Assembly: GCA_019310965.1 (NCBI GenBank)
Contig: JAFDDG010000017.1
Location: 1-64,000, forward strand
Reading direction: 5' to 3'
DNA: 64,000 nucleotides
Source: Deltaproteobacteria bacterium
GTDB lineage: Bacteria > Myxococcota_A > UBA9160 > SMWR01
The notes beneath the pieces are model-generated. The model searched no databases and was not told where the DNA came from. It worked only from the letters and a program-made list of their open reading frames with translations. How positions within the stretch are numbered: the first letter of the stretch is position 1; each line of letters begins with the position of its first letter. Positions 21,872-37,333 of the stretch are shown here, piece by piece. Both the position numbers and the translations under genes were made by a program.

Positions 21872-23050
21872 GTGAAGATTCTCGTGGCCGACGATCAGAC
21901 CTTCTGGCGCCGAGCGCTGGAGGAGGCGTTGATCGAGCGCGGCCATGCCGTGGTGGCGGCGGCGAGCGGCGACAAGGCCTGGCAGTTGCTGGGGACCGAG
22001 CCGGACATCGACGTGCTCATCACCGACTGGGTGATGCCCGGCACCAGCGGCGTCGACCTCTGCCGGCGCATTCGCGAGCAGCCGCGGGAGCGTTACCTGC
22101 CCATCTTGCTGATGACCGCGCGCACGGATCCACAGGACCTCATTGCCGGCCTCGACGCTGGCGCGGACGCCTTCCTGCGCAAGCCCTTCGACGAGCCCGA
22201 ATTGCTGGCCCAGCTACGCGTGTCCGAGCGCATCCTCGCGCTGGAGAACCGCCTGGCGGCTCGCATCAACGATCTCGAGTTCGCGCAGGCGCGGCTGGCA
22301 CGTGACCTCTCTCACGCCGCCGAGGTACAACGCGCCTGCATGCCCTCAGTGGCGCCCGACGTGCAGGGGGCAAGCTTCGCCTGGTACGCAGAAACCTGCG
22401 CCCACCTGGGCGGCGATCTCTTCAACGTGCTCCCCATCAACGGCGATCACGTGGCGCTCTACGCTCTCGACGTTTCCGGCCACGGCACGCCGGCAGCGCT
22501 CTACTCCGTGAGCCTTTCCCACGTCCTGCACGCGGACCCGGATCGGGGCGGCTTGTTGCGACGCCCCGACGGCGCGCTCACACCGCCCGCCGAGCTCGCC
22601 GCAGAGCTCAACCGACGCTTTCCGCTGATGGAGCGCTCCGGGCACTATTTCTCGCTGCTCTACGGCGTGCTCGAGCTGTCGACACGCCGCTTCGAGTACG
22701 TGCGGGCCGGCCATCCGCATCCGATCGTACTGACTGGCACAGACGCACGTGTGCACCACAGCGGTGACGGCGGCATACCGATCGGCGCGACGCCGGACGC
22801 GCACTACCGGGATGAAACCCTGGTGCTCGGCTCCGATGAGAGCCTGCTGCTCCTCACCGACGGCGTCTTCGAGACGCGTGACGAATCGGACACGGAGTTC
22901 GGCATCGAGCGCACGCTGGCTTCACTCGCCGGAGGCGCCGCGGTAGACGCGCAGACATGCGTCGACGCTCTGCGCCAGGCGCTCGAGGAATTTCGCAAGA
23001 ACGAGCCCACCCGCGACGACATCACCTTCGTCTGCGCCCGACTCGACTGA
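21872..23050 (+). CDS. Response regulator with PP2C (SpoIIE/RsbU-type) phosphatase output
   Basis: Signalling protein of 392 aa. The receiver domain (residues 1-120) has the acidic pair in LVADDQ, phospho-acceptor Asp52 in ITDWVMPG and Lys104 in FLRKPF. A coiled-coil linker (about 115-155, ALENRLAARINDLEFAQARL) follows. The PP2C domain holds all metal-binding motifs: GGDLFNV, LDVSGHG, LLTDGVFE and TRDDITF. Such proteins dephosphorylate anti-sigma antagonists in partner-switching pathways; no anti-sigma or STAS gene is adjacent. The start is GTG 21872 without a clear ribosome binding site. The gene converges on the DUF456 gene. Confidence 0.93.
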   Translation: MKILVADDQTFWRRALEEALIERGHAVVAAASGDKAWQLLGTEPDIDVLITDWVMPGTSGVDLCRRIREQPRERYLPILLMTARTDPQDLIAGLDAGADAFLRKPFDEPELLAQLRVSERILALENRLAARINDLEFAQARLARDLSHAAEVQRACMPSVAPDVQGASFAWYAETCAHLGGDLFNVLPINGDHVALYALDVSGHGTPAALYSVSLSHVLHADPDRGGLLRRPDGALTPPAELAAELNRRFPLMERSGHYFSLLYGVLELSTRRFEYVRAGHPHPIVLTGTDARVHHSGDGGIPIGATPDAHYRDETLVLGSDESLLLLTDGVFETRDESDTEFGIERTLASLAGGAAVDAQTCVDALRQALEEFRKNEPTRDDITFVCARLD

Positions 23051-23069
23051 GCCGCGGGGCTGCCCGCCT

Positions 23070-23108
23070 GGAAGCGCATCGAGCGCGAATGCCCGGCCTC
23101 GCGCTTCC
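23070..23108. terminator. Candidate bidirectional hairpin between convergent genes
   Basis: An 8-bp inverted repeat (23070-23077 with 23101-23108) with a 23-base loop lies in the 136-base gap between the stops of the receiver-phosphatase and DUF456 genes. No T-tract follows, so this is only a possible terminator. Confidence 0.3.
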
Positions 23109-23186
23109 GTGCAAGACCTGCCCGACGCTGCATCCGCCCAGAGCGGCCTCCGGACGCCCAGGCTCCTCGCAGTGGAGTCCGTCCGC

Positions 23187-23675
23187 TCAGAAGAAGAGCG
23201 CAAGCACGAAGAGCGCAAGCATCGCGAAGACCAGCGCGAGCTTCGCAGCCAGCCCGACGGCCATTCCCAGCCACGTGCCGAAGCCCACGCGCCCCGCCTG
23301 CGAGAGATTTCGCTGCACCGTGTATTCGCCGATCACGGCGCCGACGAAGGGCCCCACGATGGCGCCAGCGATTCCCATGAAGAGACCCACCAGGCCGCCC
23401 AGAACGGCCCCGATCAGCGCGCGCCGGCTGGCTCCCACGCGCTGCGCACCGAGTGCGCCGGCGGCGAAATCGACGGCGTAGGTGAGAGCCGCAAGGAGCC
23501 CCAATACCACGAGCATCCCCGTGCCCACGTGCACGAAGCCATCGGTCCAGGCGGCCAACAGGAGCCCGGCGAAGACCATGAGCACCCCGGGCAGCGCCGG
23601 CAGGGCGGTGCCGAGGGTGCCGACCAGAACGAGAAGCCCGGCGAGCACGAAGAGCGCAATGCTGGTCCACTCCAT
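23187..23675 (-). CDS. DUF456 family membrane protein
   Basis: Small inner-membrane protein, 162 aa, with about five hydrophobic helices and the glycine-rich repeats typical of DUF456 (GTALPALPGVLMVFAGLLLA; LIGAVLGGLVGLFMGIAGAI; GPFVGAVIGEY). The repeated GxxxG-like pattern resembles tightly packed glycine-zipper proteins. Function is unknown in the family. It lies 33 bases downstream of the RND exporter gene on the same strand and is probably the last gene of that run. Confidence 0.88.
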   Translation of the reverse strand: MEWTSIALFVLAGLLVLVGTLGTALPALPGVLMVFAGLLLAAWTDGFVHVGTGMLVVLGLLAALTYAVDFAAGALGAQRVGASRRALIGAVLGGLVGLFMGIAGAIVGPFVGAVIGEYTVQRNLSQAGRVGFGTWLGMAVGLAAKLALVFAMLALFVLALFF

Positions 23676-23708
23676 CGGTTGTCTCCTCCTGCAATGGGAA
23701 ATTTCCGC

Positions 23709-26453
23709 CTAACGCACACGGGCCGTACTGCGCGCCATGCGATCCGCCAGTACGTGACTGATGTTGCGGTAGACCTGCGCACCGATGCGCGGATAGCGTT
23801 TCTGGAGACGCGCCAGGTTCTCCTGGGTGAGGCGCATGAGCATGCAGTCCTGCGTCACCTCGACGTCGGCGCTGCGCTCACCGTGGAAGAGCCCGATCTC
23901 GCCCACCACATCACCGCGACGCAGCGGCACTCGGTCGGCACCGTGCTTGCCCGGAACGATGGCGGTGAGCTCACCCTGCACCACCACGTACATCGAGTCG
24001 CCGGGGTCGGCGGCCTTCCAGAGCATCTCGCCGGCCGCGTGCTCCTGCATGCGGGTCATCAGCGCGGTGATCCGGGCCTGGCGCAGGGTGAGGCCCTCGA
24101 GCAGCGGAATGGTGTCGAGCGGATTTTCGCCGAGATCCAGCGTCAGCAGGTCCCACAGGGTCACAACCCGCATGCGCGCGGCGAGCGCCGGGGTAAATAG
24201 GACGTCTGCAAGCCACGCGACGCCGAGCGTGAAGGCCGCGAGATAGCCAAACTCCTTCTGGTTCTGGAGCGTGCTCGTCGCGATCGCCAGGAAGCCGAGA
24301 CACAGCGCAAGGCTCGTGTAGGTCACCGGCCGGCCCACCGTGAGCAGTGCCTCGACGACCCCCTTGGCCTCGCTCCCCAGACGCTTGGCAGCCGAGTTGA
24401 AGCGCGCCAGGAAGTGGATCGTGTCGTCGACGGCGATACCGAGCACCAGGCACGCCACCAGACCCGTCGTCGTGTTCAAGGTGACACCCGTCCAACCGAG
24501 CGCTCCGAAATACACCAGCACCGGCAGCATGTTCGGCACCAGTGCCAGCAGCCCCACCCGGAACGACGTGAAGAGCAGGCACAGCACCGCGTAGATCGCG
24601 ATGAAGGCCAGCGCCAGGCTCACCGCCTGGCCGAGAGCGACCTGATCGCTGGTCTGGTTGATCAGCACGTTGTTGCCGGTGACGCGGCCCTTCAAGTGGT
24701 CGGGCAGCCTCACCAGATATGCCTCGATGCGGTCCACGAGCTCGGTGACGTCGGCTGAATCGATGGCGCGCGAACGGGCCAGGATGCTCACGGTCTGCCA
24801 GCGAGAATCGACGAAGCTCTCCATCTCGTCGTTGCCGCCAAAGAACATCAGCTGGGCCACGAGCTCCTTCGACTCTGGGATCACCAGCTCGTCCGTGTCG
24901 CCCATGAAACCGCGGTGGATCAGCTTCACGTAGTCGACGACCGACGTGGTCCCTCCGATGTTCGGCTGCTCTTCGAGCCAGAGCTGCAGATGCTCGACCG
25001 ACGCGAGATTCTCCGGCTCCTTGAACGCATCGCGGTACGGCGCCTCTAACACCACGTAGACGGCATCTGAGCCCTCGAGATTGTCGTTCACCGCCTCGAA
25101 GTCGACGCGCACCCGGTGCTGCGGATGGAAGAGCTTGACGACGTCGGTGCTGACCACGATCTGCGTGACGCCGTAGGCCGAAAAAAGCCCGATAGCAGCC
25201 CCCGTGGACAGGATCGCGATACGCCGGCGTATCGCGAACTGCGCGGTGGCTCGTGCGAGGCGGTCGAATGCGGAGGCGGCGGCCTCTGGCACAGCCTGGC
25301 GCAACCGCCGGGGGGGCCGAAGCAGGCACAGCAGGGCAGGACCGAAGGTCAGAGACACCAACATCGTGATCACGACGCCCGCGGTGGTGAAGAGTCCGAA
25401 CTCGCGAATCGCGGTCAACGGACTGATCGCAAGCGAGAGGAAGCCGATGGCGGTGGTGAGTCCCGTCAAGGCCACCGGAAGCGCCACCAGGCCCAGCGCC
25501 TTCTCGACGGTCTCCCGGTGGGTCTTCTCCGCCTCGCCGGTGCGCAGAAGATCGTAGTACTCGGACACCACGTGGGCGGCGTAGGCGAAGCCGATCGCCA
25601 GGATCAGAGGCGGCAGCACCACCGTGATCACGTTCAGTGCGCGTCCGGTAGTCACCAGAATCGCCAGCGTCCAGAGCAGAGCGATCCCCACGGTGATGAG
25701 AGGCACCAGTGCACCGAAGAACGAGCGGAAGGAGAGAAACGCCACCAGCGTGATCGCGAGGGCCACCAGCGGAATCGTACGCAGCAGATCCGAGAGCAGC
25801 GCGCGGCTCATCTCGGCCTTCACGTAGGCCTGCCCGGTAACCCAGATCTGCGCGTCGCCCCGTTCTTCTTCCGCGATCCGCCGGATCTGCTCGTCGATGC
25901 CGCGCGCGAGCAGCTCCCGCTCGGTCATCTCCATCAGGTAGATCATCAGCGCCGCGGTCCTGCCATCGCGGGAGACGATATTGCCGGCGTAGATGGGGTT
26001 CGAGAGCGCCTGTCGGCGGATCTCCGCGAGCTCTGCCGGATCGTCCGGCACCTCCTCCACGAAGGGCTCGATCGCGAGCCCCGACTCGTCACCCCGAATG
26101 TTCAGCGCCGTCGACAGGCTGACGACGTGGTGGATGCCCTCGATCGCCTCGATGCGCTCGCCCATGCGCTGGATGCGGCGCAGATGCTCCGCGCTGAAGA
26201 TGTCCTCAGCACTCACCGCCACGAGGATCGTCTCGTCGCTGCCAAAGACCTTGCGCACATGGTCGTAGAAGAGCCGGCCCTCATCCCCCTCGGGCAGCAA
26301 GGCGTTGGTCGAAGGATCGAAGGAGATGTGGATCTCGCCCGTGCGAAAATCCACGATTCGCGACGCCGCGAAGAGGGAGATGGCGAGCACCGTGGTCAAC
26401 ACGGTGACCGGCTGGGCTGTCACGAAACGAAGCCAGCGACTCATGCGCCTCAC
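23709..26453 (-). CDS. RND (MMPL/HpnN-like) lipid exporter with C-terminal cyclic-nucleotide-binding-type domain
   Basis: Inner-membrane transporter of 914 aa. Two RND halves each have one N-terminal helix, a periplasmic loop and a five-helix bundle (about residues 1-380 and 400-760); AIGFAYAAHVVSEYYD and GIAVDDTIHFLARFN are the conserved helix-4 segments. Residues about 780-905 form a cNMP-binding-type domain with PGDSMYVVVQGE and the phosphate-binding cassette GEIGLFHGERSADV. Fusion of an RND pump to this domain is unusual and suggests gating by cAMP or a related ligand. The upstream LolA-like gene ends four bases before it. GTG 26453 or ATG 26444 may be the start. Confidence 0.93.
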   Translation of the reverse strand: MRRMSRWLRFVTAQPVTVLTTVLAISLFAASRIVDFRTGEIHISFDPSTNALLPEGDEGRLFYDHVRKVFGSDETILVAVSAEDIFSAEHLRRIQRMGERIEAIEGIHHVVSLSTALNIRGDESGLAIEPFVEEVPDDPAELAEIRRQALSNPIYAGNIVSRDGRTAALMIYLMEMTERELLARGIDEQIRRIAEEERGDAQIWVTGQAYVKAEMSRALLSDLLRTIPLVALAITLVAFLSFRSFFGALVPLITVGIALLWTLAILVTTGRALNVITVVLPPLILAIGFAYAAHVVSEYYDLLRTGEAEKTHRETVEKALGLVALPVALTGLTTAIGFLSLAISPLTAIREFGLFTTAGVVITMLVSLTFGPALLCLLRPPRRLRQAVPEAAASAFDRLARATAQFAIRRRIAILSTGAAIGLFSAYGVTQIVVSTDVVKLFHPQHRVRVDFEAVNDNLEGSDAVYVVLEAPYRDAFKEPENLASVEHLQLWLEEQPNIGGTTSVVDYVKLIHRGFMGDTDELVIPESKELVAQLMFFGGNDEMESFVDSRWQTVSILARSRAIDSADVTELVDRIEAYLVRLPDHLKGRVTGNNVLINQTSDQVALGQAVSLALAFIAIYAVLCLLFTSFRVGLLALVPNMLPVLVYFGALGWTGVTLNTTTGLVACLVLGIAVDDTIHFLARFNSAAKRLGSEAKGVVEALLTVGRPVTYTSLALCLGFLAIATSTLQNQKEFGYLAAFTLGVAWLADVLFTPALAARMRVVTLWDLLTLDLGENPLDTIPLLEGLTLRQARITALMTRMQEHAAGEMLWKAADPGDSMYVVVQGELTAIVPGKHGADRVPLRRGDVVGEIGLFHGERSADVEVTQDCMLMRLTQENLARLQKRYPRIGAQVYRNISHVLADRMARSTARVR

Positions 26454-26457
26454 GACC

Positions 26458-27261
26458 TCAACGGCCGCCCTGGTCGAGCTCCTTCTGCGAGAACAGCTTG
26501 CGGGGCACCTCGAGCCCGATCTCGAGCTCCTCCACCCGGAGCGTGGTATCCGTCTCGTCGCGACGATCGTGCATCACAATCTCCCGTGCCACCCAGACAT
26601 CAGCCTCTCGCGAGACGCGTTCGTACGGCGCCGTCATGATCTTGCGCGGTTGGTCGCCGCGCTCGTAGAACTCCGTCCGCAGCGCGACACAAGTCTGCTT
26701 GTCGATCCAGGTCTTGATGCGCTCGTAGCTCGACTCCTCTTCCGCGGCTGGAGTCGCCGAAGTCACGTACATCTCACGTCCGCCGATCTCGTCGTCCTCG
26801 AGACGTTCACTGACCCCATCCAGCTTCATACCCTGGATGCGCTCGAACTCCTCGTAACTGAAGTCGGTTCCGAACATCGACCCGGAGCTCATGTGCTTGC
26901 TGATCCGCTTGACGCGACGCAGCTCCGGGAGATACATGAACAGATCGTTGCGCTTCTTCTTCTCGATCATGAGCAGGCCCGCACCGCGCAGATCCGCCGG
27001 CTTCTCGAAGCGCATCATCACCTTCGATAGACCGTCGTCGAACTTCTTCCAGTACAGGGTCGCACGCGACGTGGTGACGGCGCCGATGCGGTCCTTGGCG
27101 CTCAGCGTCACCGTCTGCACAGCGGTCGAGTCGGGAAAATTGCTTTCGTAGCAGGCGTCGATCTCTTCAGCCGTGGTCAACTCAGCGGCCACCGACAGAG
27201 AAGCCTGCGCGAAACCAGTCATCAGAACGATCGTGAGGCGCCCTAACGTTTGGTTGAACAT
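26458..27261 (-). CDS. LolA-like outer-membrane lipoprotein-sorting protein (partner of RND exporter)
   Basis: Periplasmic lipid carrier of 267 aa with the LolA_like (PF17131-type) pattern. ATG 27261 follows a perfect AGGAGG and starts a signal peptide (MFNQTLGRLTIVLMTGFAQA, cleavage near VAA-ELT); the in-frame extension upstream is rejected. Diagnostic segments are FEKPADLRGAGLLMIEKKK, DLFMYLPELRRVKRIS and SSGSMFGTDFSYEEFE. In other bacteria these proteins are encoded next to MMPL-type RND pumps and are thought to ferry exported lipids across the periplasm. The stop lies four bases before the RND start codon, implying translational coupling. Confidence 0.9.
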   Translation of the reverse strand: MFNQTLGRLTIVLMTGFAQASLSVAAELTTAEEIDACYESNFPDSTAVQTVTLSAKDRIGAVTTSRATLYWKKFDDGLSKVMMRFEKPADLRGAGLLMIEKKKRNDLFMYLPELRRVKRISKHMSSGSMFGTDFSYEEFERIQGMKLDGVSERLEDDEIGGREMYVTSATPAAEEESSYERIKTWIDKQTCVALRTEFYERGDQPRKIMTAPYERVSREADVWVAREIVMHDRRDETDTTLRVEELEIGLEVPRKLFSQKELDQGGR

Positions 27262-34251: not shown

Positions 34252-36414
34252 CTACTTCACCTCGAACTCGGAGATGCCGTCCCAGTCCGGCCCGGGGGGG
34301 TGCAGCTCGGACTGGCGCGCCAGTCCGAGAAGGCGCTGCACCGAGAGATCGTCCGGCCGCAGCTCGCAGAGGCTCTCGAGGGCAGCGACCGCCGCGCGGA
34401 ACTCCCCCGCGGTGTACGCCTCGAGGGCGGCCTCGTAGGCGGCGGCGAATTCGCGCTGCGAATCGGACACCTCGGACTCGTTGCCGAGGAGCTCGAAGAT
34501 CTCGACTGGCTGCTGCTTACCCTTCACGCGCACGCTGTCGACCCGACGCCAGACCACGCCGGGGCCAGCCGCATCCCGGGTCGCGCGGGATGCGAGCGCC
34601 GAGACTCCGTAGAAACGGCCGAGCCCCTCCAGGCGGCTGGCGAGGTTCATGGTGTCCCCCATGCCCGTGTAGACGAGCCGGGAGCGTGCGCCGACGTTCC
34701 CGATCACCGCGGGGCCGCTGGCCAGGCCAAAGCGGGTGGGGAGTTCTGGCAGACCTCGGGCCTGCCAGAGCGCGGCCAGCTCCCCCAATCGGTTGCGACA
34801 GCGCAGAACGGCTTGCGTGGCATGCTGGGCGTGCGCGGCGTCGTCGATCGGAGCCCCCCAGAGCGCGATCAGTCCGTCGCCGTTCAGCTGCGTGACCGTA
34901 CCGAAGCCGTCGCCCTGGATGATGCCGAGAAGCTCCTCGAAGTATTCCGCCATGTGCGCGGTCAGCGCCTCCGGCGCGAGACGCTCCGCGATCGAGGTAA
35001 AGCTCCTCACGTCGGTGAAGAGCGCCGTCACACTGCGGCGCTCCCCGCCGATGCGAGCGGCCTCGCCCCGAGCCATCAGCTCGCGGACGATCTCCATGGG
35101 CACGTAGCGCGAGAACGAATCGAGGGTGACGCGCATGCGCTCCTGCTCCGTCGCGAGCTGCTGCAGCTCGCGCAGCCGCGTCTGCACCGGTGCGATCCCG
35201 CCGAGCTCGAGAGCGCCGATGCGTTGGCTGTTGCGCGCCAGAGCGGCGAGAGGCACTCCGTAGCGACGCGCGAGCCAGAACGCCATCGCGACCGCGACCG
35301 CGAAGCCCAACAGCGCCGCGCCGAGCAGGAAGAAGCGCTGCTGAGTGATGGCGCCGACCAGATCGCGCTCCGGCACCGCGACCACCATGCGAATCGACTG
35401 GTTGGCGCCGAGTTCGACGGTGCGCGTCTGGACCCAAAAAGTCTTGCCTTCGCTCTCGAAAGAGAACAGGGTCGGCAGCCGCTCGGGAAAGCGCTCTGCC
35501 AGCGCACGCCCCCCGTCGCGCAGCAGTTCGATGCCGATCTCACCCGGGCGCTGCAGGAGCGCACGCTCCCGTGCCGCATCGTTGCCCAGCTGCGCGAGGC
35601 CCGGCAGACCGAGAAGGCGCGCATCGGCATCCACCACGAAGCCGAAGCCGTTCTCGCTGACCTCCAGCCGCTGGGTGAACTCGGTCAAATCGCTCAGCAG
35701 CACGTCGAAGGCCAGCACCAGCTCGCGACCGGAAGCATCGGTCACGTGCACCGCGGCCGTCACACCCAACTGACCAGTCGTAAAGAACCGGTAGGGACGA
35801 GTCCAATAGATCTGGTCGGGAGCCGCCTCGCCCGGTGCGCGAGCGGCTTCGACCACCTGGTACCAGTCCCGCGTGCGCGGGTCGTAGCGCTCGTCTTCCG
35901 GCGGGTCATCGACGGTCCAGCGCGTCTCCGGGGCGTCGTCAGACCATTCGCGAAACTCGAGGCGATGGCCCCAGCGTTCGGTCCAGACCTGCCGGTTGCG
36001 CCAGCGATCCGGGAGGCGCAGCAGCAGAAAGCCGCGTCCCTCGGCATCCCCGATGTTCACGGCAGAGATCTGTGGGAGATTCTCGATCATCGGCACGAAG
36101 ACGCGGTTCAGGCCGTCGCCAGCGTCGATGTCCAGAACGCCATTCTCCAGGAGATCGCGGGAGAGGAGCAGACTGCGCTCCACTGGCATCAGGAAGCCCG
36201 CGACATCGGCCTCGACCTGGCCCATGGCCCGCTCGATCAGCGCCTCCGACATCGAGCTGCGGATCCGCTCTGCCGTGATGACGGTGGTGAGCAGGATCGC
36301 GCCCGTCAACACGATGATCAGCAGACAGAGGTTGCGAATCAGGCTTCGGCGAATCGTAATGCTGCGACGGGGAGCGCTGGATCCGGGTTCCGGTGAGGCT
36401 TCGCCGTCTGCCAT
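34252..36414 (-). CDS. Cache-domain class III nucleotidyl cyclase
   Basis: Membrane cyclase of 720 aa. TM1 is about residues 28-47, the periplasmic double-Cache-like sensor about 50-355 (DPRTRDWYQVVEAAR, ISAVNIGDAEGRGFL), TM2 about 360-382, then a HAMP-like linker and the cyclase domain about 455-650. Metal-binding Asp468 (LFTDVRSFTS) and Asp513 (NGDGLIALWGAP), and Asn590/Arg594 (MNLASRLEG) are present. The purine-selecting lysine before GDG is Gln (TQLNGDG), so ATP against GTP preference is unclear. ATG 36414 is assumed; a GTG about 20 bases upstream is possible. It is divergent from a methyltransferase gene. Confidence 0.92.
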   Translation of the reverse strand: MADGEASPEPGSSAPRRSITIRRSLIRNLCLLIIVLTGAILLTTVITAERIRSSMSEALIERAMGQVEADVAGFLMPVERSLLLSRDLLENGVLDIDAGDGLNRVFVPMIENLPQISAVNIGDAEGRGFLLLRLPDRWRNRQVWTERWGHRLEFREWSDDAPETRWTVDDPPEDERYDPRTRDWYQVVEAARAPGEAAPDQIYWTRPYRFFTTGQLGVTAAVHVTDASGRELVLAFDVLLSDLTEFTQRLEVSENGFGFVVDADARLLGLPGLAQLGNDAARERALLQRPGEIGIELLRDGGRALAERFPERLPTLFSFESEGKTFWVQTRTVELGANQSIRMVVAVPERDLVGAITQQRFFLLGAALLGFAVAVAMAFWLARRYGVPLAALARNSQRIGALELGGIAPVQTRLRELQQLATEQERMRVTLDSFSRYVPMEIVRELMARGEAARIGGERRSVTALFTDVRSFTSIAERLAPEALTAHMAEYFEELLGIIQGDGFGTVTQLNGDGLIALWGAPIDDAAHAQHATQAVLRCRNRLGELAALWQARGLPELPTRFGLASGPAVIGNVGARSRLVYTGMGDTMNLASRLEGLGRFYGVSALASRATRDAAGPGVVWRRVDSVRVKGKQQPVEIFELLGNESEVSDSQREFAAAYEAALEAYTAGEFRAAVAALESLCELRPDDLSVQRLLGLARQSELHPPGPDWDGISEFEVK

Positions 36415-36487
36415 CCCATCGAAGACTACCACTCCGCCGTCGCCCCGCCCTGATGCCGAGACCCCCCGGGCGCGCGACACTGGGTAG

Positions 36488-37333
36488 ATGGACACGGTCG
36501 TCCGCCGGGCACGCGCGTTGCCGCCGGGCCGCAGCCTCGAGAACGTGCGCAACCACTACGAGGTGGAACGCCGCATCGCAGCCAGACTGTTGGCGGCGCC
36601 GCGCGCCGAGCGCAGCCAGATCTACCGCACCATGTACGATGAGCTATTCGCCCTCGTCCCCGATCACCCGCGGCTCTTGCGACGCGACGACCCGGCCCGC
36701 ACCGCGCTTCACAACCGTTCGAAGCTCGACCTGCTGCGCGGCTTTCTCGAGCCGGCGCAGAGGGTCGCAGAGTTCGCACCGGGCGACTGCCTCTTTTGCC
36801 TCGAACTCTGCGGGCACGTCGCCTCGGTCACCGGCATCGACATTTCCGACCAACGCGGAAGCTGGAAAGACGAACCGGAGAAATTCCGCCTGCTGGTCTA
36901 CGACGGCTATGAGCTGGGGCTCTCCGATGGCTGTCTGGATCTGGTCTTCAGCGATCAACTCGTCGAACATCTGCACCCGGAAGACACGGAGCTGCACTTT
37001 CGCCTGGTACGGCGCATCCTGGCGCCCGGAGGCGTCTACTTCTTTCGCACGCCACACGCCCTCTGTGGGCCGCACGATGTATCCCGCTTCTTTTCGGATA
37101 CGCCGGAGGGTTTCCATCTCAAGGAATGGACCTACACGGAGCTGGGCCCGCTGCTGCGGTCGGCGGGTTTCACAGCGCTGCGCGCCTACTGGAACGCGCG
37201 CGGCGCGCGGGTGAGATTGCCTTGGCGCCTCGTCGTAGCGCTCGAAGCCGCGATGGGTGTGTTGCCAGCGCGGCTGCGTCGGCACGTGTCGCGGGGGTTC
37301 CTCCCGAACGTGACGATCGCCGCCGGCCGCTGA
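36488..37333 (+). CDS. SAM-dependent class I methyltransferase
   Basis: Methyltransferase of 281 aa. Motif I is degenerate (VAEFAPGDCLFCLELCG in place of the usual ExGxGxG), followed by VTGIDIS, the Asp-containing DLVFSDQLVEHLHPED and the strand-5 signature RILAPGGVYFFRTPH. HLKEWTYTELGPLLRSAGF is typical of Methyltransf_11/23 enzymes acting on lipids or sugars. Start ATG 36488 lacks a good ribosome binding site. It is followed by 304 bases without a gene. Substrate unknown; a glycosyltransferase and a sulfotransferase lie a few kilobases downstream, so glycolipid modification is possible. Confidence 0.85.
   Translation: MDTVVRRARALPPGRSLENVRNHYEVERRIAARLLAAPRAERSQIYRTMYDELFALVPDHPRLLRRDDPARTALHNRSKLDLLRGFLEPAQRVAEFAPGDCLFCLELCGHVASVTGIDISDQRGSWKDEPEKFRLLVYDGYELGLSDGCLDLVFSDQLVEHLHPEDTELHFRLVRRILAPGGVYFFRTPHALCGPHDVSRFFSDTPEGFHLKEWTYTELGPLLRSAGFTALRAYWNARGARVRLPWRLVVALEAAMGVLPARLRRHVSRGFLPNVTIAAGR

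Follow-up and report, generated by a model that had tools for sequence, protein, structure and literature searches.

An HAE3-like RND permease with a C-terminal cyclic-nucleotide-binding domain, encoded beside a LolA-like carrier in Myxococcota and Pseudomonadota

The window, by which we mean the whole 64,000-nucleotide stretch of myxococcotal DNA analysed here, encodes on its minus strand a two-half RND permease that ends in a cyclic-nucleotide-binding domain (CNBD), denoted RND::CNBD. A gene for a LolA-like periplasmic protein lies directly upstream of it, and a class III nucleotide cyclase gene is found further upstream. The features of the locus are as follows:

23709..26453, minus strand: RND::CNBD gene, 914 aa, an open frame with two MMPL matches and PF00027 (Pfam) and with full-length relatives of the same architecture
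24174..26453, minus strand: RND permease part, residues 1-760, two MMPL halves (PF03176, PF12349, PF02460; AlphaFold/Foldseek)
24423..24428, minus strand: D676-D677 (motif DDTIH) in the second membrane half, candidate proton-relay acids (conservation)
23715..24086, minus strand: C-terminal CNBD, residues 790-913, with helix A, beta-roll and helices B and C (PF00027; AlphaFold model)
23856..23915, minus strand: phosphate-binding cassette GDVVGEIGLFHGERSADVEV with E852, R860 and S861 (conservation in 76 + 29 members)
26458..27261, minus strand: gene for a LolA-like periplasmic lipid/lipoprotein carrier (PF17131, E 4.2e-44), ATG at 27261 behind AGGAGGGG
34252..36552, minus strand: class III nucleotide cyclase with a weak dCache-type sensor match (PF00211, E 4e-11)

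The RND::CNBD frame starts with GTG at 26453, an in-frame ATG at 26444 being the alternative start. Pfam matches MMPL (PF03176) twice on the 914-aa protein (E 4.8e-42), as well as the Sterol-sensing (PF12349) and Patched (PF02460) families. The full-length AlphaFold model (mean pLDDT 86.7, from an input alignment of 37 members) likewise has two homologous MMPL halves, each bearing large periplasmic loops, and its best PDB matches in Foldseek are MmpL4/5, MmpL3, NPC1/NPC1L1 and HpnN. The hopanoid transporter HpnN and mycobacterial MmpL3/4/5 share the RND fold with this protein and have lipid-type substrates, but do not carry a CNBD. Among NCBIfam models the top match is the HAE3 model TIGR00921 (259.5 bits, E 5.4e-77), which lies under the curated cut-off of 351.9, and 'HAE3-like' is therefore the careful name; scores against the NCBIfam HpnN and actII models fall far under their cut-offs. 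D676, D677 and H680 are invariant among the 37 aligned members, and by analogy with MmpL3-type RND proteins D676-D677 are candidate proton-relay acids.

A chimeric contig or frameshift artefact can be ruled out, as the same open frame is found in many independent genomes. A minus-strand frame at 22804-23694 was considered as a downstream gene, but it has no Pfam match and runs partly antisense to 21872-23050, and it is regarded as a shadow. The gene at 21872-23050 (plus strand) encodes a response regulator-SpoIIE phosphatase fusion and converges on RND::CNBD from downstream.

Behind the permease, PF00027 (cNMP_binding) matches residues 804-886 with an E-value of 1.2e-13, its score of 51.2 bits exceeding the cut-off of 27.5. 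When residues 764-914 are modelled separately (AlphaFold, pLDDT 87.6), a beta-roll with B and C helices is predicted, and the best PDB matches are Thermus CAP (E 1.2e-10), Mycobacterium tuberculosis (Mtb) CRP and CRP-family proteins, GlxR with cAMP, SthK, CNG and HCN, with E-values of ~1e-10 to 1e-8. By its predicted fold, the C-terminus is a genuine CAP/CRP-type CNBD; a chance or degenerate match is ruled out by the PF00027 score, the PDB fold matches and the conservation of the cassette. A preliminary description of this DNA had proposed two full RND halves followed by a CAP/FNR-type domain at residues 780-905, and suggested structure prediction and PF00027 as checks of the tail; both halves of that proposal, and the range, are borne out by the Pfam, AlphaFold and PDB matches, and the tail does not lack the beta-roll fold. 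The tail resembles the CRP/FNR receptors (CAP, GlxR, Mtb CRP) in its CNBD fold and in the Glu, Arg and Ser/Thr of its cassette, but differs from them in having no DNA-binding domain and a shorter cassette.

The same description called for a survey of the tail in other MMPL proteins, and full-length fusions were found in Myxococcota, Nevskiales and other Pseudomonadota. In the window's own order of Myxococcota, 31 of 80 genomes have a match running through the CNBD (39-60% identical), and among 379 genomes of the phylum matches reaching through the CNBD are confined to the window's class. A second copy, 46% identical, is found in the same genome (C6:11878-14634). Scanning named genomes returned Myxococcota MAGs and Gammaproteobacteria, including Sinimarinibacterium sp. 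CAU 1509 and Polycyclovorans, and the order of Sinimarinibacterium we take to be Nevskiales. Among 85 Nevskiales genomes, 62 have a match at E < 1e-80, which in nearly every case extends as far as residue ~910, and 21 genomes match in a sample of 369 from the class to which Nevskiales belongs. A second group of fused proteins, clade B, comes from other Pseudomonadota (~20 of 398 sampled genomes of the phylum) and its members are mostly 47-60% identical to one of their number, L209; the window protein belongs to clade A. On a plasmid of Thalassospira marina, a full-length relative is annotated only as 'MMPL family transporter' and sits behind an 'outer membrane lipoprotein-sorting protein'.

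In a tree of 105 RND domains, built by a quick method, the fused proteins split into groups A and B, which are kept apart by unfused relatives, and one unfused protein (L119) is nested within group A. Well-supported branches force at least three changes of fusion state, which speaks against a single, simple origin and would fit either two gains (plus a loss) or an old gain with repeated losses. The differing cassette lengths of the two clades lead us to favour two separate gains of the CNBD. Since close relatives without a CNBD exist (L117-L119 and L121), transport as such does not depend on the domain.

The cassette of the window protein spans R846 through E852, R860 and S861 (GDVVGEIGLFHGERSADV). 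Glu852, Arg860 and Ser861, the residues expected for ribose and phosphate contacts, are all retained; the Glu and Arg had been picked out in the preliminary description, and they are also widely kept in both clades. Within clade A (n=76), Glu is kept by 70 members, Arg by 70, both by 65, and Ser or Thr by 68, while all 29 clade-B members keep Glu and Arg, so that the pair occurs in 94 of 105 members. Such retention across two clades exceeds a purely structural need, and it argues against the CNBD having a structural or oligomerising role that needs no ligand, as in KCNH channels, with its C-helix holding RND protomers together and its pocket residues kept for folding. A role of this kind would fit the members that keep the domain despite the loss of Glu or Arg, the shortened clade-A cassette, and the comparatively low confidence of the cassette in the full-length model (residues 851-860, pLDDT ~62); we regard it as unlikely, the cyclase operons of Nevskiales described below also speaking against it.

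The Glu-to-Arg spacing is 8 residues in the window protein and in 74 of the 76 clade-A members, below the usual minimum of 9. This one-residue-shorter cassette, together with a conserved A-D/N-V after the Arg in clade A, could mean an altered choice of ligand. Domains of the CAP/FNR fold are known to accept other ligands, and the CRP-like pocket might take a different nucleotide, a lipid headgroup or a metabolite, with the neighbouring cyclases acting elsewhere. This appears distinctly improbable, however, given the canonical cassettes of clade B (e.g. GEIALVAKIPRTADV), in which the spacing is 9 in most members, as is also typical of CNBDs, and 10 in three, and given that cyclase operons occur within clade A itself.

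Six clade-A members have His in place of the cassette Arg, and in five of these the protein continues at its C-terminus for another ~170-220 residues. Ten Myxococcota members in all (L087, L088, L089, L096, L100, L104, L105, L108, L109 and L114) have a conserved 170-220 aa beyond the CNBD with the motif AWADG..ER, and the replacement of Arg by His is seen in five of these ten. A TerB domain was suspected in this extension by eye (A-W-A-D-G...E-R), but there was no Pfam match in the two members tested.

The stop codon of the lolA-like gene lies 4 bp ahead of the RND::CNBD start, and the N-terminus of its product (MFNQTLGRLTIVLMTGFAQASLSVAA) resembles a signal peptide by eye, so that predicted export accompanies the model match. 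The pairing recurs, with a lolA-like gene directly upstream of RND::CNBD in 20 of 20 Nevskiales loci and neighbouring it in 25 of ~41 Myxococcota loci; several of the latter are cut by contig ends, and most loci that extend far enough have it. In clade B the genes form an operon, pqiA-pqiB-pqiC-lolA-like-RND::CNBD. Of the 30 loci examined, 13 have all of these genes on the same strand, and three more have Pqi genes nearby in another orientation. The genes pqiA, pqiB and pqiC are likewise found upstream at one locus of Nevskiales (L202), whereas they are absent from the window and from the Myxococcota neighbourhoods examined. Clade B thus shares one operon with the PqiABC/MCE system of intermembrane lipid transport (PMC10897342), although the classical PqiA, PqiB and PqiC system, in the portion of that paper considered here, is without an RND protein, a LolA-like protein or a CNBD. 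Together, the lolA-like partner and the Pqi operons tie the RND::CNBD family to envelope lipid transport.

Two further CNBD fusions were met beside these loci. In L072:4210-6873 (G000:C6), L101 and L102, the gene next to RND::CNBD encodes a patatin-like phospholipase that bears a CNBD of its own (PF01734 + PF00027, the combination known from NTE/PNPLA6-type proteins). This gene is convergent with the RND::CNBD paralog in G000; in L101 and L102 it has the same orientation as RND::CNBD and lies directly upstream. At L210:5023-6231, just upstream of a clade-B RND::CNBD gene, a CNBD is fused to a CAAX-protease-like (Rce1) domain.

The AmeABCD system of Castellaniella defragrans (PMC6394551) is similar in that a two-half MMPL/HAE3 RND protein is co-encoded with a LolA-superfamily periplasmic protein. 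AmeD is shorter, however, at 787 aa with no C-terminal sensor domain described, and the Ame system has in addition a DUF1329 protein, a second periplasmic protein and an outer-membrane protein (PMC6394551). Monoterpene tolerance and dye efflux have been linked to HAE3 transporters that, like AmeD, have a LolA-superfamily partner (PMC6394551). Whatever its CNBD does, RND::CNBD could likewise be an ordinary efflux pump that expels hydrophobic toxins and does not transport envelope lipids. This we consider doubtful, since the fold neighbours are lipid transporters (MmpL, NPC1, HpnN), the clade-B operons carry pqiABC, an MCE lipid-transport system, and paralog loci adjoin the gene for the CNBD-patatin phospholipase. 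The term 'lipid exporter', used in the preliminary description, is a reasonable one in view of the LolA-like partner and the clade-B Pqi operons, with both substrate and direction of transport being putative.

The preliminary description had also drawn attention to a class III cyclase gene about 8 kb away. The gene is present, and its product keeps the metal-binding Asp pair and the transition-state N..R pair in alignment (motifs FTD, NGDG and MNLASR). Several genes separate it from RND::CNBD, to which it is ~8 kb upstream in the same orientation, and it is outside the RND::CNBD operon. As an argument for gating it is weak: the genome has 8 PF00211 genes, which by our own arithmetic gives a ~3% chance of one lying within 8 kb on either side, and its placement is not conserved, with a cyclase of any kind in just 3 of ~40 Myxococcota neighbourhoods. 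No cyclase was found within the RND::CNBD operon at the Myxococcota loci, the window included.

In Nevskiales, a class III cyclase gene is found directly upstream of the lolA-like-RND::CNBD pair, on the same strand, in 20 of the 62 genomes with RND::CNBD. The gap between cyclase and RND gene is 850-1000 bp in most cases, which leaves room for the lolA-like gene alone, and 1.6-2.7 kb in three; two genomes have two cyclases in tandem at the locus. With ~6 cyclase candidates per genome of ~4 Mb, we estimate that chance alone would give ~0.2 such placements over the 71 RND genes. The operon cyclases have PF00211, AAA_16 and zinc ribbon domains, and eight that were aligned keep both metal-binding Asp residues and the active-site Arg. 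Several, however, have G or H instead of the transition-state Asn, and for this reason their activity is not certain. A cyclase is immediately upstream in one clade-B member (L211) too.

In at least six genomes (G000:C22 (L128), G008:C4, G009:C46, G019:C286, G073:C22 and G074:C274), a class III cyclase gene shares a contig with a different, unfused RND gene, 32-36% identical to that of the window, and lies ~3-5.5 kb from it.

Fusion of a C-terminal cytoplasmic CNBD to a transporter or channel has precedents in MFS-CNBD proteins, Na+/H+ exchanger-CNBD proteins and SthK-type channels, although these, like cyclic-nucleotide-gated channels at large, belong to other transporter superfamilies. The window's own genome has 11 CNBD genes, several of them on large membrane proteins, and Na+/H+ exchanger-CNBD, MFS-CNBD and MFS/HEAT-CNBD proteins are among its products (loci L073:1628-4291, L074:1620-4820 and L075:4426-7551). 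Pannonibacter (L162) has a Na+/H+ exchanger-CNBD as well, and a 581-aa protein of Rhodovibrionaceae (L161:1017-2759) combines a weak match to FeeM (N-acyl amino acid synthase) with a C-terminal CNBD. CNBD fusions to MFS transporters are mentioned in a review of transporter modulation, which in the part considered here gives small proteins as the known modulators of RND pumps and does not name an RND-CNBD fusion (PMC10710835). In the open literature searched, subscription papers being outside its scope, no description of RND/MMPL-CNBD fusions was found, including under HAE3 with cyclic nucleotide. The architecture may be undescribed, absence from open-access text being no proof of novelty. A transporter of this kind had been called unusual in the preliminary description; this holds in so far as the open papers searched do not describe it, but the architecture recurs in more than 100 genomes.

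We propose that RND::CNBD is an HAE3/MMPL-type, proton-driven permease which moves lipid together with the LolA-like carrier, and which is adjusted by a cyclic nucleotide on its cytoplasmic CNBD; from the domains and gene neighbourhoods we put the probability of this reading at roughly 0.58. The C-terminus of RND proteins is cytoplasmic, where cNMPs are made. A class III cyclase would make the cyclic nucleotide, most likely cAMP, which would bind in the beta-roll pocket via Glu852, Arg860 and Ser861. Helices B and C behind the pocket may then shift and alter coupling to TM12 or the packing of protomers, and the release of substrate to the LolA-like carrier, or its pick-up from it, would be switched up or down. 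The pump is thus probably switched by a second messenger. Direct gating by cNMP is plausible, and it gains strong, independent backing from the cyclase-lolA-like-RND::CNBD arrangement in 20 of 62 Nevskiales genomes; points against the proposal include a clade-A cassette one residue short, the few members without Glu or Arg, the close relatives that have no CNBD, the want of an operon cyclase in Myxococcota, and the missing transition-state Asn of several operon cyclases.

A broader and more tentative reading, to which we give somewhat less than even odds, is that a second messenger directly gates RND/LolA(/Pqi) lipid traffic, with cyclase, lolA-like gene and RND::CNBD forming a closed post-translational module. 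The large ATPase-type region of the operon cyclase would be regulatory in such a module, and control of this kind would have been built at least twice by separate CNBD fusions.

How RND transporters and envelope lipid traffic are controlled after translation is poorly understood. RND::CNBD is a concrete candidate target for the class III cyclases found in cultured Nevskiales, and, if the proposal is true, second-messenger signalling would be linked directly to outer-membrane lipid homeostasis.
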